Assembly: GCF_003815715.1 (NCBI RefSeq)
Contig: NZ_CP033922.1
Location: 3,396,001 to 3,460,000 of the forward strand
DNA: 64,000 bases
Direction: 5' to 3'
Source of the DNA: Chryseobacterium sp. G0162
GTDB lineage: Bacteria > Bacteroidota > Bacteroidia > Flavobacteriales > Weeksellaceae
The position numbers and the translations under genes were made by a program. Positions 12,268 to 25,067 of the stretch are shown here, one piece after another. A model generated the notes under the pieces. It did no database searches and was not told where the DNA came from. It saw nothing but the letters and a program-made list of their open reading frames with translations. The stretch's first letter is position 1; each line of letters opens with the position of its first letter.

Positions 12268-13536
12268 TTAAAAATTAATATCCCAGATTCCAGCTCTGCG
12301 TTCCAGCTCGATCAAAGCTGTTGCATTATCTGCAAGGGCCTGATAATAATCTTTTCTTACTCCATTATAGGTTCTTTGAGCATTCAGTACTTCGAGAATA
12401 GAGCTTTCTCCTCTTTTGTAACTGTAGGTGATGCCATCCAATATACTTTTCGCTTCAGTAAGCATTCCGTTATGAAATTGTTTTACCTGTTTCTGGGTGG
12501 CTATGTATTGTTGATAAGCCTGCATGACTTCAGCCTGTATTCCCTGTTCTATCTGATGGTATTCAAGTTCTGCCTGTGAGTGAGCCATTTCTGCTATTTT
12601 CACGCCTGCATTTCTTCTGTTGGAAAACTTCAAAGGAATACTGAGCCCTAATTTTACTGCATTTACAGTTGGTGAGGGAGCTATTTCATTCGTAGCTTCA
12701 GTGTGACGTTCTGCCCCGGCATTGATGCCAAGATCTATTTTTCGGTTTGCTTTTTCAAGGTTGATCTGGCTTTTGGCTACTTGCGTATTCTGTTTGGCAG
12801 CCAGTAGGTCTGCTCTTGTATTTAATGCCTGAATGATCAGATCATCAATATTAAAATCTCTATTGAAAGCATTAAAGTCCCCGGCAACATCTCTATCTGT
12901 TATTTTGCCATCGCTGAGAAATACAGCTAATCCTGTGATTGCTTGTTGCTCTGCGCTTTCTGCCTGATATATCTCATTGAGAAGGGAAGCAGCCTCCAAT
13001 TTACTCTGTTTTGAAGTGACCAGAGATATTGTTCCCAGGCGATAACGTATGCTGTCAGATTTAGCAAGCTGTAGAATATTTTTATAAGAATCCTGCTGTA
13101 CTTCGAGGATTGCTTTAGATTTTAATGCTTCCAAATAACCTAAAGTAGCATCAGCACGAAGATTTCTGAAAAAATCCTGTAATTGAATTTTGCTTAATTC
13201 AGACTGATCCTTAGCCAGGTTTACTCTTGCTTTTCTTTTGCCTCCCAGTTCAAGGGTCCAGCCAATGGAAGCTCCATATACGTATCCCATATTTTCTTTA
13301 ATCCCATTATTGGTTGTTTCTAGATCCAATTGCGGATCCGGAAACATACTTGCTGTCTGAATGGAAGCTTCTGCCATGCCTATATTGTACTTTTGAGCGG
13401 CATATCCCAGATTTTTCTTTCCGACAAGGCTTAGATATTCTTCAAAATTCAGAACTTCTTTTTCCTGTGCCTGTACCTTATTCGTCATACTGAGTAATAA
13501 GGTCACTCCTATGATAAAGTATACTCTAATTTTCAT
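12268..13536 (-). CDS. TolC-family outer-membrane channel of metal efflux system (CzcC-like)
   Basis: About 422 residues with signal peptide MKIRVYFIIGVTLLLSMTNKVQAQ from the ATG at 13536; an ATG at 13551 would add MKHLH. Two repeats of long coiled-coil helices with QDSYKNILQLAKSD and RRNAGVKIAEMAHSQAELEYHQIEQGIQAEVMQ (shown in part) are typical of OEP/TolC proteins, which form the outer-membrane duct of tripartite RND pumps. The gene overlaps the end of the RND pump gene by 11 bp (26 bp with the longer start), so it is translationally linked as the last gene of the adaptor-pump-channel operon. Confidence 0.9.
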   Translation of the reverse strand: MKIRVYFIIGVTLLLSMTNKVQAQEKEVLNFEEYLSLVGKKNLGYAAQKYNIGMAEASIQTASMFPDPQLDLETTNNGIKENMGYVYGASIGWTLELGGKRKARVNLAKDQSELSKIQLQDFFRNLRADATLGYLEALKSKAILEVQQDSYKNILQLAKSDSIRYRLGTISLVTSKQSKLEAASLLNEIYQAESAEQQAITGLAVFLSDGKITDRDVAGDFNAFNRDFNIDDLIIQALNTRADLLAAKQNTQVAKSQINLEKANRKIDLGINAGAERHTEATNEIAPSPTVNAVKLGLSIPLKFSNRRNAGVKIAEMAHSQAELEYHQIEQGIQAEVMQAYQQYIATQKQVKQFHNGMLTEAKSILDGITYSYKRGESSILEVLNAQRTYNGVRKDYYQALADNATALIELERRAGIWDINF

Positions 13537-16500
13537 ATGTAAGTGCTTCATCTGATTCTAAATTTTGTTTTTCGTTGCGACGTTCTGCCATAAAATAGAT
13601 AGCAGGAAGAACGAATAGTGTTAAAATAGTAGAGAACATTAATCCATACACAATGACAGTAGCCAACGGTCGTTGTACATCCGAACCGATTCCGGTTGCT
13701 AGTGAGGCGGGGAATAATCCGATTACTGCTACTGTTGCGGTCATCAATACCGGTCTGAAACGATCCTTTGCTCCTTTAATGACAGCAAGTTTCAAATCGT
13801 ATCCTTTTTTACGGAGGTCATTGATATGGGAAATCATAATCACACCATTCTGAATGGCGACTCCGAAAAGGGCAATGAATCCTACGGCAGACGATACGTT
13901 CAAAGACATTCCACGTATATTAAGAGCAAGCATTCCTCCAAATAATGCCAGCGGAACAATAGACATCAATACCAATGCCTGTTTGAAATCTCCAAACGCT
14001 CCATACAATAACAGGAACATAATAGCCAATGCCAAAGGAACAATAAAAGCCAATCTGGAATAAGCCCTATTTTGATTTTCAAACTGTCCGCCCCATTTAA
14101 TCTGATACTTTTCATGGTCATATTTGATGTCTTTTTCAATCTTGTCCTGAGCCTTTTTCAGGAAAGAAGAAAGATCTGTTCCTCTTAAATTCAGTTTAAC
14201 GGTAAGATGCCTCTTGTTCATTTCACGGGTGATGGTACTTTCTCCGGTACTTAATTTTACTTCAGCAACCTGAGATAATGGAATTTTTGCCCCTGAAGCT
14301 GAGGTGAGCATCAGGTTTCCTATTTTATCAAGAGTATCACGGCTGTCTTCAGTGTAACGGCAGGAAATATCATACACTTTATTACCGATAAAGATTTGCG
14401 AGATGGCTTTTCCGCCTAAAGCGACTTCAATAAGATCAGCCACATCAGCCACATTTAATCCATATTGAGCAATCTTGTCTCTGTCTGCAATAATCTGCAA
14501 CTGAGGTAGAGGAGGTTCCTGGTCAATAGCAAGGTCAGCAGATCCCGGAATTTTGTTTAAGGTAGATAATACATTTTCAGCAATTCTTCTGGTTTCTTTG
14601 AAATCTTCTCCATATACTTTTACAACAAGTTCACTGTGTGCCCCGGAAATTTTATCCATTACTCCATCAATCATCGGTTGTGAGAATCCTACTGTAAACC
14701 CTGGCATTTCTTTGTAATCAGCAGCTAATTCTTTAATGAGGTCTGCTTTGGTTTTCCCGGATGGCCATTGATCGTAAGGTTTTATTCCTACAGAAACTTC
14801 AAAGTGAGAAGCGGTCCATGGATCGGTTCCGTCATCGTTGCGGCCAGCCTGAACCATCATATAGGTAATTTCAGAATGTTTTAATGTTTTGGCACGTAGG
14901 GTATCGCTCATTTCTTTTGCTTTGGCCAGGGAAATACCCGGAGGTAACTGTACCTGTAGCCAGATAGAACCTTCATCCAGCTCCGGAAGGAAGTCTTTTC
15001 CTACAGTATAAGAAAGCACTCCTGCTGATAATAAGACGATGGTTACCGGGATCATTACTTTTTTAGGGGTTAGCATTATTTTTTCGATTCTTTTCCCATA
15101 GGCTGCACTTATTTTTTCAAGCCATTTGTTGTGATATATTTTTTGTGGTTTCCGATAGATCACATAAGCCAGACCTGGAATAAGGAGCAATGCTACTGCA
15201 AGAGCACCCAGTAAAGCATACCCTACTGTAAATGCCATCGGCGTAAACAGCTTTTTCTCTACTCTTTCGAATGCGAATAGTGGAAGATAGGCAGTGATAA
15301 TAATGATGGTAGAAAAGAAGATAGGTTTTGCTACTTCAATTACTCTTTGGGTAATTGTTTTCTCTTCTAATGCTTCTTCAGGGTTCTCTTCCCTTTTTTT
15401 CAGAATGGTTTCAAGCATTACAATGGCTCCGTCTACAATAATCCCGAAGTCAATAGCTCCCAGCGAAAGAAGGTTAGCAGGAATATTGGTAAAATGCATT
15501 AAAATAAATGCAAATAATAAAGAAAGCGGAATGGTAATAGCGACCAATAAAGCACCTCGCCAGCTTCCCAGGAATACTATCAGGACAATAATAACGAGTA
15601 CAATTCCTTCAGTAAGGGTATGGGAAACCGTGTGAAGGGTAGTACTTACAAGGTCTGTTCTGTCAAGGAAAGGATGAATTTTTACACCGGGAGGAAGCGT
15701 TTCATTGTTTAATTCATCAATCGCCTCATGAACACCTTCCAATACTTGTGATGGGTTTTGACCTCTTAATAAGAGAACAATTCCTTCTACACTTTCAGGA
15801 TAGTTTCGTTTTCTGTCTGTATATCCCAGAATTCCTTTTCGTTCCAGATTTCCGTATTTCAATGTTCCTACATCATTCAGGAATACCGGAACCCCGTTTT
15901 CAGTTTTTACTACAATTTTTCCAAGGTCATTTAAATCTTTTACAAGACCTATTCCCCGAATCACATACGCTAAGTTTCCACGGGGAAGCATACTTCCTCC
16001 GGCGCTCACATTATTTTTTGAAATGGTTTCGGTAACTTCTGATAATGAAAGACCATACTGTTCGAGTTTATGAGGATCTAATTCCACCTGAAATTGGGTA
16101 GTAATTCCTCCAAAATTGGTCACATCTGCAATCCCTGAAACCTGTTTGATGCGCGGAATAATTACAAATTTTTGTAAATCTGTAAGTTCCCGCAAACTAT
16201 GATTATTACTTTCAATAATATAACGGTATACTTCGCCGATAGGAGAGGTGAGAGGATCAAGACCAGGCTGTGCACCATAAGGAAGAGTAACATCTGTAAG
16301 CCTCTCTTGAATACGTTGTCTCGCCCAATAGTCGTCTATCCCATCATCAAAAACCATGGTAATCATGGAGAGTCCAAAGGTACTTTTGCTTCGCATAACA
16401 TGCATTCCAGGAAGACCATTAAGAGCCCTTTCCAAAGGAATGGTAATTTGTTGTTCTACTTCTTCAGCAGCCAGCCCGGGAACCTGGGTAACCACCTGCG

Positions 16501-16636
16501 ACGTTACATCAGCGATGTCAGGATAAGCTTCTACGGATAATTTGGTCCAGGAATAATAACCAAAGAACCCCAGTAAAAGGAAGAGTGCCAACATCAGCCA
16601 CCTCTTCTGTATAGAGATTGTCAAAAGTTTTTTCAT
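13526..16636 (-). CDS. Heavy-metal efflux RND pump, CzcA/CusA family
   Basis: The 1036-residue inner-membrane pump has 12 expected membrane spans and two large periplasmic loops. The first span is near residues 12-30, and SVEAYPDIADVTSQVVTQVPG is the usual pore-domain start. Within TM4 the motif DFGIIVDGAIVMLE (about residues 395-408) carries the Asp-Asp-Glu proton relay seen in pumps for divalent cations (Co/Zn/Cd/Ni). Cu/Ag pumps of the CusA type have a different TM4 motif. Divalent-cation export is therefore the more likely job. It lies 65 bp after the adaptor gene and overlaps the channel gene. Proton-driven antiport is known for the family; metal specificity here is inference. Confidence 0.93.
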   Translation of the reverse strand: MKKLLTISIQKRWLMLALFLLLGFFGYYSWTKLSVEAYPDIADVTSQVVTQVPGLAAEEVEQQITIPLERALNGLPGMHVMRSKSTFGLSMITMVFDDGIDDYWARQRIQERLTDVTLPYGAQPGLDPLTSPIGEVYRYIIESNNHSLRELTDLQKFVIIPRIKQVSGIADVTNFGGITTQFQVELDPHKLEQYGLSLSEVTETISKNNVSAGGSMLPRGNLAYVIRGIGLVKDLNDLGKIVVKTENGVPVFLNDVGTLKYGNLERKGILGYTDRKRNYPESVEGIVLLLRGQNPSQVLEGVHEAIDELNNETLPPGVKIHPFLDRTDLVSTTLHTVSHTLTEGIVLVIIVLIVFLGSWRGALLVAITIPLSLLFAFILMHFTNIPANLLSLGAIDFGIIVDGAIVMLETILKKREENPEEALEEKTITQRVIEVAKPIFFSTIIIITAYLPLFAFERVEKKLFTPMAFTVGYALLGALAVALLLIPGLAYVIYRKPQKIYHNKWLEKISAAYGKRIEKIMLTPKKVMIPVTIVLLSAGVLSYTVGKDFLPELDEGSIWLQVQLPPGISLAKAKEMSDTLRAKTLKHSEITYMMVQAGRNDDGTDPWTASHFEVSVGIKPYDQWPSGKTKADLIKELAADYKEMPGFTVGFSQPMIDGVMDKISGAHSELVVKVYGEDFKETRRIAENVLSTLNKIPGSADLAIDQEPPLPQLQIIADRDKIAQYGLNVADVADLIEVALGGKAISQIFIGNKVYDISCRYTEDSRDTLDKIGNLMLTSASGAKIPLSQVAEVKLSTGESTITREMNKRHLTVKLNLRGTDLSSFLKKAQDKIEKDIKYDHEKYQIKWGGQFENQNRAYSRLAFIVPLALAIMFLLLYGAFGDFKQALVLMSIVPLALFGGMLALNIRGMSLNVSSAVGFIALFGVAIQNGVIMISHINDLRKKGYDLKLAVIKGAKDRFRPVLMTATVAVIGLFPASLATGIGSDVQRPLATVIVYGLMFSTILTLFVLPAIYFMAERRNEKQNLESDEALTYEN

Positions 16637-16701: not shown

Positions 16702-17805
16702 TTATTTCGCATCCAGCATATAAATTCCACCCTCGGTCATGATGGTGTCTCCCACTTTTAATCCGGAAGTGATTCTGATCATTTTCTGATCCGCTTCTCC
16801 GGTGGTTACTGAACGTTTGGCAAATTGATTCTTGCCTGTTTTGATCCACACATATTGAGAACTGTCCTGCTGCATGAGTGCACTGATCGGAATCATAACT
16901 GTTTTTTGAGGAGTCGTAGCAAAATTGACAGTCGCATACATACCGGGTTTGAGTTTTCTGTCCGGATTATCACATTCGATAAGGACTTTTATACTTCGGG
17001 TATTTTCATCTACGACTTCATTGATGTGATACACTTTTCCAGTGATATTTCTGTCCGGATAAGCACTTACTTTTACCGAAACATGATCTCCGATATTGAC
17101 AAAACGGATATCTTTTTCCTTTACATCTCCGGAAATCCAAACTTTGGATAATTCTGCAATGATGATGACAGGGTCTGCATCGCTTTTTAGAAATTGGCCG
17201 TTGACAATTTTATTGGAAATAATTTCTCCGTTAATTGGGGCTCTTACAATAAGGGGACTTCCGATACCTCCGCCTTTGCTGTTATAAACTTTCAATGCAG
17301 AAGAAGCATTGGAAAGGGATGTTTTTTTATTTTTGAAATCGGTTTCTGCCTCGTCAAGTTCTTTCTGAATTCCGACTCCATGTTTTACCAGATCCTGCTG
17401 ACGTCTGTAATTTTTCTCTGCGAGCTGTACATCATTCAAGGCATCTGTATAATCTTTCTGAACTGAAAAATAATCAGAGGAAAGGATTTCAAAGAGAGGG
17501 CTGTTTGCTGAAACATTTTGTCCAAGCTGAATGAATGATTTTGTAATTCTTCCGGAAAAGGGGCTGGCAATTTCAGCATAATGGTTGGGAATAGCCTGAA
17601 TGGTTCCTGCTGAAACGATTCCGTCGCTATGTTCCTGCTCAGAAACGACTTCTGTTTTTATTTTTTTGAATACTGGGTTGTTTTCAGGGACGATTACATT
17701 TTCTCCTTTTACCAGAAGATCCTGATCCTGAGAATCTTCACTTTTGGGATTTTTACAAGAGGTAATAAATGTCAAAAGTACTATTTTGAATACTGCTTTT
17801 CTCAT
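16702..17805 (-). CDS. Periplasmic adaptor lipoprotein of metal efflux RND system (CzcB/CusB-like)
   Basis: The 367-residue membrane-fusion protein starts with a lipoprotein signal ending FITSC (Cys about residue 17). The order is barrel-sandwich half 1 (NHYAEIASPFSGRITKSF, about 75-92), an alpha-hairpin coiled coil (KDYTDALNDVQLAEKNYRRQ), half 2 (IVRAPINGEIISNKIV), a beta-barrel domain (WISGDVKEKDIRFVNIGD) and a membrane-proximal domain (PISALMQQDSSQYVWIKTG). It links the inner-membrane pump to the outer-membrane channel. It is the first gene of the operon, with a leader of about 100 nt and the four-repeat regulatory array upstream. Confidence 0.93.
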   Translation of the reverse strand: MRKAVFKIVLLTFITSCKNPKSEDSQDQDLLVKGENVIVPENNPVFKKIKTEVVSEQEHSDGIVSAGTIQAIPNHYAEIASPFSGRITKSFIQLGQNVSANSPLFEILSSDYFSVQKDYTDALNDVQLAEKNYRRQQDLVKHGVGIQKELDEAETDFKNKKTSLSNASSALKVYNSKGGGIGSPLIVRAPINGEIISNKIVNGQFLKSDADPVIIIAELSKVWISGDVKEKDIRFVNIGDHVSVKVSAYPDRNITGKVYHINEVVDENTRSIKVLIECDNPDRKLKPGMYATVNFATTPQKTVMIPISALMQQDSSQYVWIKTGKNQFAKRSVTTGEADQKMIRITSGLKVGDTIMTEGGIYMLDAK

Positions 17806-17904
17806 ATAAGATGTTTATAACCACTAATTTAATTCTAATTTTCTTTTTATATCAATACAGTGTGATATTTATTTAAAATACCTTAAATGCTTGTTTTTTG
17901 CCGT

Positions 17905-17914
17905 TGCAAAAGTA
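17905..17914 (-). promoter_or_regulatory. -7 box of efflux operon (TACTTTTGCA)
   Basis: Read on the minus strand, TACTTTTGCA fits TAnnTTTG. There is no TTG at the usual -33 distance; instead the four-repeat array starts exactly 22 bp upstream (17937). The same ten bases with the same spacing precede the mgtC-mgtA operon (21497-21506). Confidence 0.7.
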
Positions 17915-17936
17915 TTTCTATCCTTTCTGATAGCCG

Positions 17937-17980
17937 GTTAGAGAACCTTTAGAATGCTATTAGAATACCATTAGAAAGGA
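17937..17980. promoter_or_regulatory. Four 11-bp direct repeats, likely response-regulator binding array (efflux operon)
   Basis: On the plus strand the array reads GTTAGAGAACC, TTTAGAATGCT, ATTAGAATACC, ATTAGAAAGGA: four units of exactly 11 bp sharing TTAGA. An 11-bp period in direct orientation is typical of OmpR/PhoB-family dimers lying along one face of DNA. A matching four-unit array lies upstream of mgtC-mgtA. The two-component system at 22881-24966 is the nearest candidate regulator, which is inference. Confidence 0.7.
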
Positions 17981-17996
17981 TGGTATTTCTGAGAAA

Positions 17997-20669
17997 TTAT
18001 AGCCATTGTCCGAATTTTTTAATGAACCATTGTTTCACAAATTGGGTAAGGATGCAATATCCTGTAAGGATTCCTATCAGATAAGGGAAATAGCTTAAAG
18101 GTAAAGGCTGCATTTTCAGATATCCTGCCAATGGGGTGAAAGGAATAAGGATTCCAATCAACATGATTAAGCTCGTTAGGGCAACAACCGGTGCAGCAGC
18201 CCAGCTTTGGATAAATGGAATCTTTTTGGTTCTGATAATATGAACAATCAAAGTTTGGGACAACAGTCCTTCTACAAACCATCCGGTCTGGAATAGACTC
18301 TGATGCTCTGGTGTATTGGCTTTAAAAATAAAAAACATTACAGCAAACGTCATATAATCAAAAATGGAACTCAAAGGACCAATATAAAGCATGAATTTTT
18401 TAATACTGTCAGCTTCCCATTTTTTGGGTTGTTCCAGAAAATCTTTATCCATCGTATCCCAGGGAATAGAGGATTGTGAAATATCATACAACAGATTTTG
18501 AGTCAGAATTTGCAGCGGCAGCATTGGCAGAAATGGCAGCAATGCACTGGCGCCAATCATGCTGAACATATTTCCAAAATTACTGCTGGCCGTCATTTTT
18601 ATATATTTAATAATATTCCCGAATGTTCTTCTTCCATAAATAACTCCACTTCTGAGTACCATTAAGTCTTTTTCGAGCAAAATGATATCCGCACTTTCTT
18701 TGGCTATATCAGCTCCGGTATCGACAGAAATTCCAACGTCTGCTTCTTTTATAGCTGCTGCATCATTGATTCCGTCACCCATAAATCCTACAGTATGACC
18801 TTTGGATCTTAATATTTTTACAATGCGTTGCTTTTGTAATGGGCTTACCTTGGCAAAAACGGAATATAAATCCATGTCTTTGCTGAGTTCTTCATCACTC
18901 ATATTCTCCAGTTCATCACCAAGCATAATGGTATTGATGGGAATTCCTACATCATGACATATTTTTTTCGCAACAATATCATTATCTCCGGTGATTACTT
19001 TTACTTCAACACCTAATTTATGCAGGGCTTTGATACTTGGCTCTGCAGAAGGTTTAGCGGGATCAAGAAATCCAATAAAACCGGTAAGGATGAGATGATT
19101 TTCATCTGCAACAGAATAATTGAGTGGATGATCTCCTTCAAATTCTCTGATGGCAACCAGTAAGACACGAAGCCCTTCTGCATTGAGCTTTTCAGACATT
19201 CTGATGATTTTTTCCTTCATAAGGTCATCTAACGGAATAATATTGTCATTCTCTATATGAAGGCTGTGGTCATCACCCGGATCTAAAGCATATGTACACA
19301 AAGACAACATTTCCTCTACCGCTCCTTTTGAGATCATAAGGTGTTTTCCTTTTGAAGTATTCAGAATGACAGACATTCTTCTTCTTTCGAAATCAAAAGG
19401 AATTTCGTCTACTTTCAGATAGAGTTCATCAGCCTTCATGAGATTGTGGACTTCTGCATGATCCAGAACAGCTTGATCCAGCAGGTTTTTTAAGCCGGTT
19501 TGATGAAAACTGTTGAGGTAAGCCCATTTCAAAACCTCATCATCATCAAGACCACGCACGTTGAGGTGAGTTTCCAGAACGATTTTATCAAGGGTAAGGG
19601 TTCCGGTTTTATCCGTACAGAGAATATCCATAGCGCCGATATTCTGGATGGCATTCAATCTTTTAACGATTACTTTTTTCTTACTCATATTTACAGCACC
19701 TTTGGCAAGGTTAGCGGTAACAATCATAGGCAGCATTTCAGGAGTAAGTCCTACTGCTACTGCAATGGCGAATAAGAGTGCCTGCATCCAGTCTCCTTTC
19801 ACGAATCCATTGATAAGGAAAATGACAGGAGTCATGACCAGCATAAACCGAATCAGTAAAAAGCTTACTTTGTTGACTCCGATATCAAATGCGGTTTCAG
19901 GCCTTTTGGAAACCAGGCTTCTGCTGATGCTTCCGAAATAAGTGAAAATGCTGGTGTTAACAACCACAACCGTAGCTGATCCACTGACTACATTGGTTCC
20001 CATGAAACAGATGTTTTGAAGGGTAAGTGGATTCCTGTTTTTGGTATCACGGATAGGAAATGCATTTTTTTCAACAGGTAATGCTTCTCCTGTGAGAATA
20101 GATTCACTGATGAATAGATCTTTGCTTTTCAAAATTCTGCAATCGGCAGGAACCATATCTCCGGCAGAAAGAATCACGATATCTCCGGAAACTATTTCAG
20201 TGATTTCTATTTCTTCACTTTCTTTGAATTTCCTTTTGGTAAGACAGCTGGTTTTTACCATTTTTTTCAATGCTTCTGCTGCCTTATTACTCCGAAATTC
20301 CTGAATAAATCTTAAAACAGTACTGAACAATAGCATTACTGAAATAATAATACTTGTACTTAGATCTTTCTCTCCTTCAGGAACGAGAATTACATCGATA
20401 AATAAGGAAATTACAGCAATGCATGCCAATATATAATTAAAGGGATTAAAGAAAGAATGAGCAAACTGCTTCAGCCATGAGGGGGCTTTTTGAGTAGCAA
20501 TTTCATTTTTACCGTAAATTTTCAAACGGTCTTTCACTGTGTTTTCGCTAAGGCCTTCTTCTGAAGTTTCCAGCATAGCGTAAACCATTTTTTCGTTCTC
20601 TGAAGCGGCTTCTTTTAACTTAACAAGAGCGGCTGAATTGAGATTTTTGTTGGAAGTTTTTTTTAACAT
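17997..20669 (-). CDS. mgtA: Magnesium-translocating P-type ATPase
   Basis: The 890-residue P-type ATPase of the P3B (Mg importer) class has N-terminal spans at about residues 75-115. It has the TGEALPVEK actuator loop, the phosphorylation motif DKTGTLTLDK, the nucleotide-binding KGAVEEML, the hinge MGDGINDAAAIKEADVGISVDTG, and a C-terminal six-span region with QILTQNLLYDISQSSIPWD typical of MgtA/MgtB. In the inner membrane it brings Mg2+ into the cell when external Mg2+ is scarce. It starts 11 bp after the mgtC-like gene. No own promoter is visible in that gap, so the two are one transcription unit. Confidence 0.95.
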   Translation of the reverse strand: MLKKTSNKNLNSAALVKLKEAASENEKMVYAMLETSEEGLSENTVKDRLKIYGKNEIATQKAPSWLKQFAHSFFNPFNYILACIAVISLFIDVILVPEGEKDLSTSIIISVMLLFSTVLRFIQEFRSNKAAEALKKMVKTSCLTKRKFKESEEIEITEIVSGDIVILSAGDMVPADCRILKSKDLFISESILTGEALPVEKNAFPIRDTKNRNPLTLQNICFMGTNVVSGSATVVVVNTSIFTYFGSISRSLVSKRPETAFDIGVNKVSFLLIRFMLVMTPVIFLINGFVKGDWMQALLFAIAVAVGLTPEMLPMIVTANLAKGAVNMSKKKVIVKRLNAIQNIGAMDILCTDKTGTLTLDKIVLETHLNVRGLDDDEVLKWAYLNSFHQTGLKNLLDQAVLDHAEVHNLMKADELYLKVDEIPFDFERRRMSVILNTSKGKHLMISKGAVEEMLSLCTYALDPGDDHSLHIENDNIIPLDDLMKEKIIRMSEKLNAEGLRVLLVAIREFEGDHPLNYSVADENHLILTGFIGFLDPAKPSAEPSIKALHKLGVEVKVITGDNDIVAKKICHDVGIPINTIMLGDELENMSDEELSKDMDLYSVFAKVSPLQKQRIVKILRSKGHTVGFMGDGINDAAAIKEADVGISVDTGADIAKESADIILLEKDLMVLRSGVIYGRRTFGNIIKYIKMTASSNFGNMFSMIGASALLPFLPMLPLQILTQNLLYDISQSSIPWDTMDKDFLEQPKKWEADSIKKFMLYIGPLSSIFDYMTFAVMFFIFKANTPEHQSLFQTGWFVEGLLSQTLIVHIIRTKKIPFIQSWAAAPVVALTSLIMLIGILIPFTPLAGYLKMQPLPLSYFPYLIGILTGYCILTQFVKQWFIKKFGQWL

Positions 20670-20680
20670 GGCTTCAATGG

Positions 20681-21379
20681 TTATAAATCATTTTCAGTAC
20701 CTATAATTTCCCAGCTTACCTTGATAACTTTATCTTCAATAGTAAGTCTGCTGGCGGTTTTTTCCATAAAACTGTCTTGTGGTGTAGAAGAATGAACTTC
20801 TGCCGTGATAATGGCATTTTCCGGAACACCGTTATCATCGCTGGTAAGAGATTTCAGTAGTACTTTATCATTTCCACTTAATGATTGCATGAGTTGTACC
20901 CGGAGATGGTTTTCTACCTCACTTTTACATTTGATGCTGAGTAGATATTCGGTGTAGTGATTTCTGCTGCTGATATTGTTCCCTAATTTTACTCCCAATG
21001 GTCGGAGAATAAGATGGGTGAGGATAATAAAACCACTGGTAATAGCAGCTTCCAAAGGAAGTCCTAATGCGGAGAGTGCTCCTACTGATGCAGAGCACCA
21101 GATGGTGGCAGCGGTATTAAGACCTCTTACGGTAAGTCCATCTTTCATGATAACTCCACCTCCTAAAAAGCCAATACCACTGACGATATAAGAAGCTATT
21201 CTGCCTGTGGCATCACCACCGATCCGGATAGAGAGAAGAACAAATGCTGCGGAGCCAAGGCATACCAGAGTATTGGTTCGGAGACCGGCGCTTTTTTGAC
21301 GCCATTGTCTTTCAAAACCTATGCTGGCACCCAAAGCAAATGCCGTGAAAAGACGAAGAGTAAATTCGAATGTATTCAT
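20681..21379 (-). CDS. MgtC/SapB family membrane protein
   Basis: The protein is about 232 residues from the ATG at 21379, which follows an AGGAAAAG stretch. An ATG at 21433 would add 18 residues unlike the family. The MgtC signature is clear: ALGASIGFERQWRQKSAGLRTNTLVCLGSA, then a Gly-rich span GIGFLGGGVIMKDGLTVRGLNTAATIW (shown in parts here), and a cytoplasmic ACT-like C-terminus (from about residue 150). MgtC proteins modulate magnesium homeostasis or the F-type ATPase in other bacteria. This one lies directly upstream of mgtA, as in the Salmonella mgtCB operon. Confidence 0.9.
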   Translation of the reverse strand: MNTFEFTLRLFTAFALGASIGFERQWRQKSAGLRTNTLVCLGSAAFVLLSIRIGGDATGRIASYIVSGIGFLGGGVIMKDGLTVRGLNTAATIWCSASVGALSALGLPLEAAITSGFIILTHLILRPLGVKLGNNISSRNHYTEYLLSIKCKSEVENHLRVQLMQSLSGNDKVLLKSLTSDDNGVPENAIITAEVHSSTPQDSFMEKTASRLTIEDKVIKVSWEIIGTENDL

Positions 21380-21496
21380 AACTTTTCCTTTTTTTATAAA
21401 GCTTGTAAAGCTGTACGGGAAAAGTGAGTACAACTAAAGCTTTTAAGATTGATAATAACTGTAAGGATCTGCGTCCATGTGCTTTATTTTTTACAC

Positions 21497-21506
21497 TGCA
21501 AAAGTA
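21497..21506 (-). promoter_or_regulatory. -7 box of mgtC-mgtA operon (TACTTTTGCA)
   Basis: On the minus strand TACTTTTGCA fits TAnnTTTG, and 22 bp separate it from the repeat array starting at 21529, exactly as at the efflux operon. The leader to the ATG at 21379 is about 110 nt. I looked for a magnesium riboswitch in it and could not support one. Confidence 0.7.
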
Positions 21507-21528
21507 GTAGAACTGGCTTTTTTCACCT

Positions 21529-21572
21529 GTTAGAAAAGCTTTAGAATGTTATTAGAATTATATTAGAGAAAA
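21529..21572. promoter_or_regulatory. Four 11-bp direct repeats, likely response-regulator binding array (mgtC-mgtA)
   Basis: On the plus strand the units are GTTAGAAAAGC, TTTAGAATGTT, ATTAGAATTAT, ATTAGAGAAAA. Unit by unit they match the array at 17937-17980 (G-start, T-start, A-start, A-start), with the same orientation and the same 22-bp distance to the -7 box. This strongly suggests that one regulator controls both operons. Confidence 0.7.
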
Positions 21573-21817
21573 TAATGATGACACTTTTTAAAATAAAAAA
21601 TATAAGCAGAATCATGTTTTTAATGAGCTCTATTTAAGATTGATACTGTTCGTAGATTTATCAATGGTTACAGATTAGAATTAAAGCTCTCATCTGTAAC
21701 CATTTTTTAAGATAAAATTTCAATACATTTGGCAATAATTCAGCTTTATACAATAAAGTTTGTTTTATCTCCCGGTTTCAAACCAAAAGTTGTCTTTATA
21801 AATTATATATTTTAGAA
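21573..21817. other. Intergenic region upstream of EamA transporter gene
   Basis: Together with 21380-21572 this makes a 438-bp gap between divergent genes. Beyond the -7 box and repeat array listed separately, I see only AT-rich sequence and a weak inverted stretch (GGTTACAGATTAG / CTCATCTGTAACC, 21665-21702) that may be a terminator-like or regulatory hairpin. There is no open frame worth calling. Confidence 0.4.
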
Positions 21818-22669
21818 ATGAAAAATTCAAACTTAGCGATTCCTGCCACATTGTTAGCCATTATCTGTGTACAGGGTGGAGCATCTATTGCCAAGCAGCT
21901 TTTTCCGGCAATTGGAGCTATTGGAACCGTTACTTTGAGGATTGTACTTTCTGCTATTTTGCTTACTATCATCAATCGTCCTAAATTTTTACAGTTTACT
22001 CCACAAAAATGGAAGTATTGTGCAATGTATGGAGTGGGATTGGCTGCAATGAATCTTATTTTTTATATGGCGATTCAAAGAATTCCATTAGGATTGGCTG
22101 TAACCGTAGAATTTGCAGGTCCTTTGTTTCTAGCATTGGCATTATCCCGTAAGTTATTGGATGTAGTTTGGGCATTATTAGCCTGTGTAGGAATATTGCT
22201 TATTGTTCCCTGGAAGAGCGATCATATAGATTTGTTAGGGCTGGGATTAGCTTTTCTCGCTGGAATATTCTGGGCTCTTTATATTGTAATGGGCGGGAAA
22301 GTTTCTAAAATAATGGATGGAAAAGATGCCGTAACCACAGGAATGTTATTTGCCAGTCTGGTAATTATACCTTTCACAATATGGGATGGAGCGGTCTTTA
22401 ATATTACACCAACTATTTTTGTCAAAGGATTGGGAGTCGCTATTTTATCAAGTGCTTTACCGTTTTCTTTAGAAATGATGGCTTTAAAAAAGCTTCCTGC
22501 AAAGACATTCAGTATCCTGATGAGCCTGGAGCCTGCATTTGCAGCCCTTTCAGGATTAGTTTTCCTTGCTGAAGAGTTATCTTTTTTACAGTGGATTTCT
22601 ATTAGCTGTGTAATTGCTGCCAGTATAGGAACTACAATGTTCAATAAAACGGCGACCTCTCATAATTAA
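21818..22669 (+). CDS. EamA/DMT-family transporter (RhtA-like exporter)
   Basis: The 283-residue protein has ten hydrophobic spans in two EamA repeats (about residues 5-135 and 145-278). Phrases such as IPLGLAVTVEFAGPLFLALALSRK and FSILMSLEPAFAALSGLVFLAEELS are typical of the RhtA threonine/homoserine exporter branch of the drug/metabolite transporters. It likely exports amino acids or similar small metabolites across the inner membrane; the substrate is not readable. It is transcribed alone, divergently from the mgtC-mgtA operon. Confidence 0.88.
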   Translation: MKNSNLAIPATLLAIICVQGGASIAKQLFPAIGAIGTVTLRIVLSAILLTIINRPKFLQFTPQKWKYCAMYGVGLAAMNLIFYMAIQRIPLGLAVTVEFAGPLFLALALSRKLLDVVWALLACVGILLIVPWKSDHIDLLGLGLAFLAGIFWALYIVMGGKVSKIMDGKDAVTTGMLFASLVIIPFTIWDGAVFNITPTIFVKGLGVAILSSALPFSLEMMALKKLPAKTFSILMSLEPAFAALSGLVFLAEELSFLQWISISCVIAASIGTTMFNKTATSHN

Positions 22670-22691
22670 TTTCTAAGAAGATTAATTTTAT

Positions 22692-22860
22692 TTCCCACAG
22701 ATTACACGGATTTTCACAGATGATTGCATAAAATCTGGTAAAAATATTTTAGTCTCGCAGATTGAACGGATTACACAGATTTCTTGATTATTGTACACAG
22801 ATATTTGCGAACACAAGAAAATCAATAATTTCTAAACTTCTGTGTCTTTTGCGGTTCAAA
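22692..22860. repeat. Intergenic repeat, ACACAGAT family (family B)
   Basis: The segment consists of variants of ATTACACGGATTTTCACAGAT and CTCGCAGATTGAACGGATTA (each shown in part), then TGTACACAGATATTTGCGAACACA and TTCTGTGTCTTTTGCGGTTC. Shorter copies occur at 26432-26463 and 30450-30527. It fills the gap between two convergent genes. I see no coding potential. Confidence 0.55.
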
Positions 22861-22880
22861 ATATTGTCAGATAAAAAAAA

Positions 22881-24248
22881 TTAAGCTGTTTCAATATCAA
22901 ATATCACTGTGAAAACAGTCTCATTATTCTCAGATGTTACTTTGAGGGTTGCGTGATGAAGATGAATAATTTTCTCAGTCAGAAAAAGCCCAATTCCATG
23001 TCCCTTTTCCTGCTTGGAGGCTTCACTTCTGTAAAAAGGTTCAAAAATATGGAGTAAGTCTTCCTGTGAAATGGTAATTCCTGTATTGATAAAGCGGATC
23101 AGAAGGTTTTCGGTATTTACTTTTACATCAATCAGACAGGTATGGAACGGCGAATATTTGCAGGCATTATCGATGAGGTTATTAAAAGCAACCTGTAACA
23201 AATATTCATTTCCCTGCACAACAAGCTGATGTTCTTCTATAGCGTTATCAATATTCAATGAAACTTTATATTCTGTATTTTCCTTTATTATTTTCGAATA
23301 AGATTCTAATAAAATTTCATCCAATCGTACTTCTGAAAAACTGATTTCATTAGGATCATAGCTGGCTTTGGCAAGATCCATCAGGCTATTGGATAACTTT
23401 ACCATATTACGGGCGTCATCCAAAGCGTATTGAATAGTCTGTTGATATTCTTCCTGGGTCTGTTCCTTTTCAGAAGAGAATTCCAGTTCTGTAATAATAG
23501 CAGATAGTGGGGTACGCAGTTCGTGTGAAATATTGGATACAAAATGTTTTTGAGCATCAAACGAATTTTCCAGGCGCTCAAGCATTCCGTTGAAATTTTC
23601 AGCCAGTTCATTAAGCTCATCTTTCTCACCCGTGGCTTTTAAGCGCAGTTGTAATTTCCCGGCAGTGATATTCTTTATTTGATGAACCATTTCACTTAGC
23701 GGGTTCAATGCTTTTTTTGAAAGAAATATTCCGGCTAAATAAATTAATATTAAGATACTAATGAAGGCAATAATACTGATGGTTAGAAGATGATTGATTG
23801 ATTTATAACCATATTGATCGTACCCCGCAGCGGTTACCAAATATTCCTTTCCATTGTGAGAATAGATGGTTCCTATAGCCTGCAGATCATCAATGAAAAA
23901 ACTGATGTCTTTCTTTTTTAGAATACTGGAAAGCATTTTCGGATCTTCCTTAACAAAATCTACCTTTGAATCATCATGATAGACCAGATTGAACTCAGGA
24001 TCATAGATGGCTACCTGAACTTCATTAATTGTTTTTGTGTTATTCTTGTAAACACGGTGCATTTCCTTTTCACTTAATGTACTTTGAAAAAAAAGATTGG
24101 CTTTTGCTACCGCTTCGTTTCTGAGTTGGGCATAAAATGAAACTTCCCTGGCTTCACTCGAAGAATAGTATACTGCAATACCGTAAAATATCATCAACAT
24201 AGCCGTGACAAAGGTAAAAAGTAGGGTAAGCCGGGTTCTTATTTTCAT
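22881..24248 (-). CDS. Sensor histidine kinase with HAMP domain
   Basis: The 455-residue membrane kinase has TM1 at about residues 8-28, a periplasmic sensor of roughly 115 residues and TM2 at about 150-170. A HAMP linker (about 172-225) follows, then HisKA with the phosphorylated H242 in SNISHELRTPLSAI. The HATPase domain has N box NLIDNACKYS and G box GHGIGLFLTEKI. It would sense an envelope or metal signal and phosphorylate the response regulator encoded immediately upstream (16-bp gap). Its proximity to metal efflux and Mg-uptake operons that share a direct-repeat array suggests a metal signal; that is inference. Confidence 0.93.
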   Translation of the reverse strand: MKIRTRLTLLFTFVTAMLMIFYGIAVYYSSSEAREVSFYAQLRNEAVAKANLFFQSTLSEKEMHRVYKNNTKTINEVQVAIYDPEFNLVYHDDSKVDFVKEDPKMLSSILKKKDISFFIDDLQAIGTIYSHNGKEYLVTAAGYDQYGYKSINHLLTISIIAFISILILIYLAGIFLSKKALNPLSEMVHQIKNITAGKLQLRLKATGEKDELNELAENFNGMLERLENSFDAQKHFVSNISHELRTPLSAIITELEFSSEKEQTQEEYQQTIQYALDDARNMVKLSNSLMDLAKASYDPNEISFSEVRLDEILLESYSKIIKENTEYKVSLNIDNAIEEHQLVVQGNEYLLQVAFNNLIDNACKYSPFHTCLIDVKVNTENLLIRFINTGITISQEDLLHIFEPFYRSEASKQEKGHGIGLFLTEKIIHLHHATLKVTSENNETVFTVIFDIETA

Positions 24249-24264
24249 GCCTTATAAGTATAAG

Positions 24265-24966
24265 TTATTGTTGATGTTCTTCATACCCTTTTTTAAGAAT
24301 AAAACCCATTCCTGCTTTGGTATGGATCAGCTTATTCTCAAAATCTTTATCAATTTTTTTACGGATATAGTTGATGTACACATCAATAAAATTAGTGCCG
24401 GTATCAAAATGGGTTTCCCATACTTTTTCTGCAATTTCACTTCTGGAAAGTACTTTCTCTGAGTTTTCCATCATAAATTTGAGAAGGTTGAATTCTTTAG
24501 GGGTCAGTTTGATAGGAACATGATCTCTGCTTACCGTTTTCTGTTCCAGATTCATTTCAATCCCTTCATATTTAAGGACAAAAACTTTTTGCTGTCTCTG
24601 TTGTGAAAAACGCTTTAGAAGGACATTAATTCTCGCCACCAACTCACGCATTTCAAAAGGTTTGGTCATATAATCGTCGGCACCGGCATCAAATCCTTCC
24701 AATTTGTCGTCCGTAGTGCCCAAAGCTGTAAGCATTATGACCGGAAGATTAGGTTTCAGAGCTTTTATTTCATTACAAAACTCCAGACCACTTTTTTTAG
24801 GCAAAACAATATCAGTGACTACAAGGTCATAATTTTTCTGCAATGCCAGTTTTAGTCCTGTTGATCCATCATATGCTGTACTTACTTCAAATTCAGCTTC
24901 CTGAAGTCCTTTTGTGATAAGCTTGGAAAGTCTGTCATCGTCTTCTACTAATAAAATATGAGGCAT
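24265..24966 (-). CDS. OmpR-family response regulator
   Basis: The 233-residue regulator has an N-terminal receiver (residues 1-118) with the acidic pocket VEDDDR, phospho-acceptor D52 in VVTDIVLP and the switch lysine in MTKPFEMRELVAR. A C-terminal winged helix (about 130-228) carries KLTPKEFNLLKFMMENSEKV, in part, and a recognition helix near TNFIDVYINYIRKKID. OmpR-family dimers bind direct repeats with 10-11 bp spacing, which fits the arrays at 17937 and 21529. A minus-strand -7 box TACATTTG (25023-25016) lies upstream; I see no copy of the array there, so autoregulation through it is not supported. Confidence 0.94.
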   Translation of the reverse strand: MPHILLVEDDDRLSKLITKGLQEAEFEVSTAYDGSTGLKLALQKNYDLVVTDIVLPKKSGLEFCNEIKALKPNLPVIMLTALGTTDDKLEGFDAGADDYMTKPFEMRELVARINVLLKRFSQQRQQKVFVLKYEGIEMNLEQKTVSRDHVPIKLTPKEFNLLKFMMENSEKVLSRSEIAEKVWETHFDTGTNFIDVYINYIRKKIDKDFENKLIHTKAGMGFILKKGYEEHQQ

Positions 24967-25067
24967 AAGAATAGGTGAAGTGTTTGTGAGTGAAAAGGTG
25001 AAGTGATATTCTTCACAAATGTAATGAATTCTATTTTGTAATTTTGGCGGAATAGAGATATAATTGA

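Follow-up and report, generated by a model that had tools for sequence, protein, structure and literature searches.

The stretch of DNA analysed here, called the window throughout, comprises 64,000 nucleotides of Chryseobacterium sp. G0162 (contig NZ_CP033922.1, positions 3,396,001 to 3,460,000) and carries two metal-related operons, mgtC-mgtA for Mg2+ uptake and czcBAC for metal efflux, whose promoters share a four-unit repeat array at a fixed distance from the -7 box. On the minus strand, the genes follow one another in the order response regulator, kinase, mgtC, mgtA, czcB, czcA and czcC, with a gene for an EamA exporter lying on the other strand between the kinase and mgtC (Table 1). We do not count that exporter as a member of the regulon. 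The array is widely conserved upstream of mgtC, and the mgtC transcript contains, in addition, a short leader open reading frame (ORF) that may provide a second, Mg2+-dependent gate.

The closest solved chains of the predicted MgtA are Mg2+ P-type ATPases, and the nearest solved chain of the CzcA-type resistance-nodulation-division (RND) pump is the zinc pump ZneA (1322 bits, versus 532 for CusA); the czcBAC operon probably exports zinc-like metals. The kinase scores 211 bits against NCBIfam cztS_silS_copS, under the cut-off of 293, and the response regulator likewise falls below the cut-off of TIGR01387 (cztR_silR_copR; 217.7 versus 279.2 bits), though this is its best-scoring model.

Table 1. 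Coordinates of the genes, promoter elements and leader segments discussed in the text.
Feature	Position in window	Strand	Basis
OmpR/PhoB-family response regulator, proposed activator of both arrays	24265..24966	-	Pfam Response_reg + Trans_reg_C
Sensor histidine kinase, heavy-metal-sensor-like	22881..24248	-	Pfam HAMP/HisKA/HATPase; NCBIfam cztS_silS_copS nearest
EamA/RhtA-like exporter between kinase and mgtC	21818..22669	+	Profile matches
Four-unit array, mgtC-mgtA promoter	21529..21572	-	Pattern scan; kept in 78/80 loci
-7 box TACTTTTGCA of mgtC	21497..21506	-	Sequence
Leader ORF MDADPYSYYQS (acidic residues 2 and 4, Pro 5)	21443..21478	-	Translation; M[DE] conserved
Predicted hairpin directly after the leader ORF stop (anti-sequestor)	21398..21442	-	Predicted in the window's leader
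Anti-RBS (ribosome-binding site) segment ACTTTTCCC	21417..21425	-	Complementary to 21381-21389, 8/9 pairs
mgtC start-region segment AGGAAAAGT	21381..21389	-	Complementary to the anti-RBS segment
mgtC (MgtC/SapB family)	20681..21379	-	Pfam PF02308, PF21770
mgtA, Mg2+ P-type ATPase	17997..20669	-	TIGR01524, 1240.4 bits (cut-off 610.75)
Four-unit array, czcBAC promoter	17937..17980	-	Pattern scan
-7 box TACTTTTGCA of czcB	17905..17914	-	Sequence
czcB-type periplasmic adaptor	16702..17805	-	TIGR01730
CzcA/ZneA-like heavy-metal RND pump	13526..16636	-	TIGR00914, 941.4 bits (cut-off 701.45)
czcC-type outer-membrane factor	12268..13551	-	Pfam OEP

The shared array and its candidate regulator

Each array consists of four direct units with a period of exactly 11 bp, the TTAGA motifs starting at 17938, 17949, 17960 and 17971 in the first and at 21530, 21541, 21552 and 21563 in the second. 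The initial annotation of this DNA had described these positions, the period and the first letters of the units (G/T/A/A in both), all correctly on re-reading, and had called the two arrays identical, which holds for the layout and the TTAGA core but not for the six spacer bases of the units. It was also right that the same box stands at an equal distance of 22 bp from both arrays, when the unit is counted from its N (23 bp when counted from the first TTAGA), and that neither promoter has a TTG at -33, where czcB has CGG and mgtC has AGG. The box sequence CAAAAGTA, which is minus-strand TACTTTTG, is found at positions 17907 and 21499. In the direction of the genes, which is that of the minus strand, array and box read (TCTAA-N6)x4 - N23 - TACTTTTG, and mgtC or czcB comes next. 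Exact four-unit arrays are present at two sites in the 5,276,141-bp genome, both of them within the window, and the combination of array, 23 bp and TAnnTTTG occurs at three sites genome-wide when up to three mismatches are allowed; control patterns, reversed in the first scan, gave no match in either case.

Operators of the OmpR/PhoB family are direct repeats of 10-11 bp that end at -33/-35 of promoters with a poor element there. The arrays, which are 11-bp direct repeats upstream of promoters lacking a good -33, are of this type, and the response regulator has the receiver domain and the winged-helix Trans_reg_C domain that the family requires. Unlike the familiar tandem-repeat operators, those of the window have four units, a TTCTAA core and a Bacteroidota -7 box at a fixed distance of 23 bp.

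Conservation was examined in the best 80 of 418 MgtC relatives in GTDB genomes, picked on MgtC similarity alone, with an array at mgtC counted at a match of at least 18/20 within 700 bp upstream. The set spans Chryseobacterium, Elizabethkingia, Flavobacterium, Empedobacter, Pedobacter, Sphingobacterium, Mucilaginibacter, Chitinophaga, Sediminibacterium, Dyadobacter and Pseudarcicella, with the orders Cytophagales, Chitinophagales and Sphingobacteriales represented beside the Chryseobacterium-like relatives of the window. An array lies upstream of mgtC in 78 loci, and in the remaining two (L084 and L104) a 19/20 array lies upstream of a TolC-type gene that precedes mgtC and is the first gene of the operon. 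Loss of the arrays from relatives, which the initial annotation had named as grounds for giving up its proposal, is thus not seen on the mgtC side. TTTG stands exactly at the 23-bp spacer position in 77 of the 78 mgtC promoters, the exception being L033 with TTTA, and the box starts with TA in 58, GA in 19 and CA in one. The 74 distinct arrays consist of four TCTAA units, the third having R at one position and mostly A/T at the next, and a C follows the fourth unit in 67. Across 91 promoters (78 of mgtC, 11 of czcB and the window's two), a TTG is present 17-20 bp before the box in just one. As an internal control, the same scan found an upstream match of at least 17/20 at none of 67 response-regulator, 68 kinase, 63 mgtA and 60 czcA genes. 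Autoregulation of the response regulator through the array was considered and rejected on the first of these figures, which covers 450 bp upstream.

Beyond these loci, a second sample of 10 loci was drawn from MgtC searches of two other families, with matching genomes numbering 1/9 and 9/98; an array of at least 16/20 is present in eight, seven of which have TTTG at 23 bp and one (L142) at 22. A family-wide scan allowing one mismatch detected the four-unit array in 107/296 genomes, compared with control matches in 7. The full pattern, with four degenerate positions, matched 11/395 genomes in a sample of the phylum (control, 0) and is therefore far from universal there.

On the czcB side, conservation of the array is confined to a minority. 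A czcB array of its own is found in the window and in 11/80 loci, with a further case (L049) lying at the end of a contig, and most loci have a single array at mgtC. In the 41 loci where mgtA and czcB lie on one strand, the estimated gap between them is 5-257 bp in 36, and 30 have no separate czcB array; since czcB follows closely behind mgtA in these cases, the mgtC promoter most likely serves the pump as well. Where both arrays are present, the class of the third unit agrees in 11/11 loci (TCTAA/TCTAA in seven, TCTRT/TCTRT in four), an agreement that fits a single regulator and that common descent could also give.

Two further features of these promoters may be recorded. In Pedobacter chinensis (L088:8355), the DNA separating the kinase gene from the mgtC array contains a third array. 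In addition, the 23-bp spacers of the 91 promoters (85 distinct; for example, 17915-17937 of the window) contain a perfect inverted repeat of 4-8 bp in 25/85, with lineage-specific letters, and none in the other 60; the mean longest stem is 1.44 versus 0.77 in shuffled spacers, a value as high being reached in 0/300 shuffles.

Gene linkage was viewed up to 10 kb from mgtC, and as 11 loci are shorter than 20.6 kb, the following counts are lower bounds. The regulator and kinase genes are found in 69/80 loci. CzcA gives a tblastn match in 61 loci, and in 58 of them the match shares the strand and has an identity of 60% or more. Such a close CzcA accompanies both regulator and kinase in 54/80 loci, and in 37 mgtA is present as well. 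The array, spacing and box, their deep conservation and the linkage of the genes are thus established at the level of sequence.

The regulator next to mgtC had been proposed initially as the activator of both operons, and it is its adjacency to the array in 69/80 loci, its recognition helix and a paralogue that speak for this by association. Little or no variation is seen in the recognition helix, N-F-I-D-V-Y-I-N-Y-L/I-R-K-K, among 68 sequences (the window and 67 relatives). The paralogous regulator, 51% identical and with a near-identical helix, lies beside the genome's only other array of 23-bp geometry. Alternatively, the arrays may serve other or several cross-talking response regulators, the neighbouring system being one user among them; the paralogue's helix and adjoining array would suit such an arrangement, as would a third system whose six-unit TCTAA array stands 11 bp from its box. 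Given the linkage of the neighbouring regulator to mgtC arrays in 69 of the 80 loci, and the presence of a separate array beside each paralogous system, with a different geometry in the third, this appears very unlikely. That one regulator would drive ZneA-like export and MgtC/MgtA together is, by comparison, well supported by conservation.

The other arrays of the genome deserve a brief description. The third one of 23-bp geometry (2242721-2242789; L114/L146) lies between the paralogous two-component system and a divergent operon encoding a protein without a Pfam match and a Dabb protein, and array sequences like it recur in relatives. At 1999000-2006000 (L113), an array of six TCTAA-like units, at 11 bp from a TAGCTTTG box, has a two-component system on one side and a second RND operon of heavy-metal type on the other, so that the repeat is shared and the geometry is different. 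With the window's system, an OmpR-type regulator therefore adjoins such an array three times in one genome. Finally, a TauE/SafE permease gene at 4204000-4213000 (L115) is preceded by a three-unit TCTAA array with an 11-bp distance to TAACTTTG.

The leader of mgtC

Between the -7 box and mgtC lies a leader ORF of 9-18 codons, which, like the possible RNA switch behind it, was absent from the initial annotation. Reading from the first ATG past the box gives, in 53 of the 58 long mgtC leaders (the window's and those of 57 loci), a peptide that begins with M[DE], that is, with an acidic second residue; GA has a mean frequency of 0.045 in these leaders. Counted as distinct first-ATG peptides, 41/46 begin with M[DE], have 9-18 residues and start 16-47 nt behind the box, the five others belonging to L067, L073, L077, L080 and L111. 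A proline at residues 3-6 is found in 31 of these 41 and a further acidic residue at 3-5 in 29. Codons were compared in 35 Chryseobacterium/Elizabethkingia-type leaders including that of the window, many of them close relatives. Codon 2 is GAC or GAT, codon 4 GAT or GAC with one GGT, and codon 5 CCN in 31 and a serine codon in four, the changes in these three codons being mostly at third positions with five non-synonymous cells; at codon 3, the third base varies and the amino acid is T, S, A or P. This pattern demonstrates coding constraint on the ORF.

In the second sample, an M[DE] ORF begins 18-25 nt behind the box in 7/8 array-bearing loci, with peptides such as MENIPPDSLKSF, MELGPIFALKR and MEKPPSGIRKQ. 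At L137, two one-codon ATGs come ahead of it, and at L139, an in-frame ATG; the eighth locus, L136, has a short leader without an M[DE] ORF. No such ORF was seen at L144 and L145, which lack an array, in a stretch that has no true anchor. The 12 czcB leaders (11 loci and the window) contain no M[DE] ORF behind the box, although L093 has one starting before it, and a single czcB operon without mgtC in view (L126) bears MDLPPLPGKQKL. In five loci (L076, L083, L087, L106 and L111), the mgtC leader extends for about 350-380 nt after the array, and in four of these an M[DE] ORF is still found close to the box.

Leader ORFs that resemble it are known from enterobacteria. In Escherichia coli, ribosomes drop off MgtL at EPDP (residues 2-5) under low Mg2+, which lets mgtA be transcribed (PMC11282234), and translation of Salmonella mgtB is promoted by residues Asp2 and Glu5 of mgtQ, which free its RBS (PMC8092293). 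The window's ORF, beginning MDADP, is likewise a short frame in the leader of a Mg2+ gene with acidic and proline residues at its N-terminus. With MgtL of E. coli and Salmonella mgtA, it shares acidic residues 2 and 4 and Pro 5, the EPDP of MgtL corresponding to DADP here and to DTDP and others in relatives. MgtL, however, acts on Rho-dependent termination before mgtA, whereas the window's ORF precedes mgtC and appears to be concerned with hiding its start region. The mgtQ frame of Salmonella mgtCBRU is a translation-aborting ORF of eight codons with Asp2 and Glu5 and alternative anti-RBS/RBS hairpins (PMC8092293); it differs in lying between mgtC and mgtB rather than 5' of mgtC, and its hairpin logic (1:2, 2:3, 3:4) is ordered differently. 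The window's ORF thus resembles two translation-abort ORFs linked to Mg2+, and a response to Mg2+ in Bacteroidota is suggested by analogy with these enterobacterial cases.

The ORF may instead sense something besides Mg2+, such as proline supply, the activity of elongation factor P (EF-P) or ribosome damage by an excess of transition metals. Several lineages have PP or PPP near the start (MDLPPP, MENIPP, MDKPP), a polyproline stall signal, and enterobacterial mgtP responds to charged tRNA-Pro (PMC8092293). The constant feature, however, is the acidic residue 2 (41/46 distinct peptides), whereas proline at residues 3-6 is not constant (31/41), and sensing of this other kind seems rather improbable beside a response to Mg2+.

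Two mutually exclusive hairpins are predicted behind the ORF, one of which would hide the mgtC start region; the apex of the post-ORF hairpin and the bases immediately ahead of the mgtC start are complementary. Covariation in one clade supports the post-ORF hairpin. In 15 relatives of a clade other than that of the window, the homologous hairpin has 86% of cells paired and 12 cells with two-sided changes, neither value being reached by any of 500 shuffles that leave relatedness in, and sliding the partner breaks the pairing. For the anti-RBS:RBS helix, two-sided changes occur at pairs 2, 3, 7, 8 and 9 among 14 distinct pairs from 35 leaders, although the anti-RBS segment had been selected for best complementarity in that comparison. 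RNAalifold, applied to one clade of 15, returns mainly this helix and an inner stem of three pairs, with a covariation term of about 0. When anti-RBS segments were permuted against RBS segments, the observed mean was -9.6 and the permuted mean -7.6, with 0/5000 as low; because the ranks of each segment's own RBS scatter, this signal is mostly clade membership and is not relied on. A Mg2+ riboswitch, the M-box and others included, was sought as well and rejected, as no Rfam covariance model matched 17500-25000 at up to E = 1.

The switch was simulated by barring the bases under a ribosome at the ORF stop from pairing, compared with early drop-off. Over 31 distinct leaders, the predicted mean openness of the start region is 0.47 with early drop-off and 0.30 with the ribosome at the stop, and 17 leaders follow this direction, opening on early drop-off.

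A separate observation concerns the mgtC start itself. With gene starts estimated, GGAGG precedes mgtC in 10/80 loci (L073, L077, L080, L091, L095, L100, L103, L106, L111 and L112), compared with 1/378 other genes of the same loci (response regulator, kinase, mgtA, czcA, czcB and czcC); three Flavobacterium loci read AGAAAAGGAGG. Nine of the ten have no M[DE] ORF, and L106 has both. Ribosomes of Bacteroidia do not use Shine-Dalgarno sequences, while those of Flavobacterium johnsoniae lacking bS21 do (PMC9976891). A Shine-Dalgarno sequence at mgtC in place of the leader ORF is a lead only, and it is weakened by the origin of the ten loci from few lineages and by the report that rpsU is the single Shine-Dalgarno match beyond chance in F. 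johnsoniae (PMC9976891).

A two-layer explanation and the case against it

The arrangement suggests the following mechanism. A metal-responsive two-component system (22881-24966) would turn on both operons, its OmpR/PhoB-type regulator occupying the four-unit array that ends where a -33 element should be. The bound regulator would stand in for this element by bringing RNA polymerase to the -7 box, at a distance of 23 bp, thereby coupling efflux of Zn-type metals by czcBAC to MgtC/MgtA. A second gate would act on the mgtC transcript alone. With ample Mg2+, the leader ORF would be translated to its stop, where the ribosome covers the hairpin and the freed anti-RBS segment shuts the mgtC start region. 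At low Mg2+, ribosomes would be lost early on the acidic/proline start, allowing the hairpin to form and mgtC to be translated. For the first layer, we infer the metal signal, binding and activation by the neighbouring regulator, and the start sites; for the second, we infer translation of the leader ORF, Mg2+ as its signal and the direction of the switch. Taken as a whole, two-component drive of both operons with a Mg2+-gated mgtC leader is the explanation we regard as probable, with modest confidence.

A number of observations weigh against it. As regards the leader, proline is missing at residues 3-6 in 10/41 distinct M[DE] peptides, and 20 short-leader loci possess the array and mgtC without an M[DE] ORF. 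The four pairs of the post-ORF hairpin with two-sided change are matched by 64/500 shuffles, covariation of the sequestor (anti-RBS:RBS) does not exceed shuffles within one clade of 15 relatives, and RNAalifold finds just three trivial pairs in 33 leaders of three clades. An anti-RBS segment ranks its own RBS at 2, 3, 1, 1, 5, 4, 8, 6 and 5 among nine RBS classes, a weak preference. No difference between the two simulated states is predicted for 12/31 leaders, the opposite direction for 2/31, and no switch for the window's own leader (0.36 versus 0.40). As regards the operons, no mgtA is in view at 17/80 loci, and the pair of regulator and kinase is out of view at 11/80. Lastly, the primer table of a Chryseobacterium Cd RNA-seq study lists a gene called czcC under "down regulated gene", with the operon unspecified, and mentions of mgtA in the available part of that source are confined to a citation to another strain (PMC13209784).

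Some of these points would be expected if the transcriptional layer alone were real, one response regulator serving both operons and the leader ORF being incidental or structural, without sensing Mg2+. The 20 loci with array and mgtC but no M[DE] ORF and the window's lack of a predicted switch fit this, and the array, its spacing and the gene linkage are much better kept than any leader structure. Against a purely transcriptional account, an M[DE] start at the first ATG in 53/58 long leaders, together with wobble-type variation in codons 2-5, is unexpected of non-coding RNA, and the ORF recurs in 7/8 array-bearing loci of the second sample. We therefore regard transcriptional control alone as unlikely, though less so than a leader sensing proline or metal damage, and continue to favour a regulon with a Mg2+-gated mgtC leader.

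Known counterparts and biological meaning

Tandem-repeat operators, leader ORFs of Mg2+ genes and MgtC beside Czc are all known kinds of arrangement. The initial annotation had called joint control of metal export and Mg2+ import an unusual pairing, which is overstated, as the czc determinant of Cupriavidus metallidurans already contains mgtC (czcM) as a separate operon (PMC9045368). That system combines an MgtC-family gene with a Zn/Co/Cd RND pump and the CzcRS two-component system; it belongs to another phylum, czcM forms its own operon, and the available part of the source names no mgtA and mentions neither a shared array nor a leader ORF (PMC9045368). PhoPQ at mgtA and mgtCBR offers another parallel, combining two-component transcription with leader control of Mg2+ genes (PMC8092293). 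Unlike PhoPQ, the window's regulator is nearest to the heavy-metal CopR/SilR/CzcR models, and its array also precedes a metal-efflux operon. Among the matches listed in the open-licence literature searched, there was no operator of four TTCTAA units with 23 bp and no MgtL-like leader from Bacteroidota. As far as these searches reach, the operator rule, the joint regulon and the Bacteroidota leader ORF are new.

The pairing of Zn export with Mg2+ uptake also makes physiological sense. In C. metallidurans under combined Zn and Mg starvation, the rate of Zn import rises sevenfold, an effect attributed by the authors of that study to the low Mg2+ and to Mg2+ importers being up-regulated (PMC11112998), so that cells raising their Mg2+ uptake would need an exit for Zn. 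An excess of transition metal could also mimic Mg2+ shortage at the ribosome. It is tempting to extend this to a Zn/Mg regulon across Bacteroidota, in which a two-component system would induce metal efflux together with Mg2+ acquisition, and an MgtL-like leader ORF, either ancient or independently evolved, would limit the Mg2+ branch to true Mg2+ shortage. Some lineages without the ORF would use a strong Shine-Dalgarno sequence at mgtC, of a type ignored by normal Bacteroidota ribosomes, the ribosome still being the sensor. In its entirety, including the Shine-Dalgarno part, this wider reading is offered tentatively and is on balance doubtful.

If the proposal is true, it would provide a regulator-operator-promoter rule for Bacteroidota (four TTCTAA units, 23 bp and the -7 box) that can be used in genome scans, and it would explain the joint switching of Zn export and Mg2+ import. 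It would also extend the role of ribosome drop-off as a Mg2+ sensor beyond enterobacteria.

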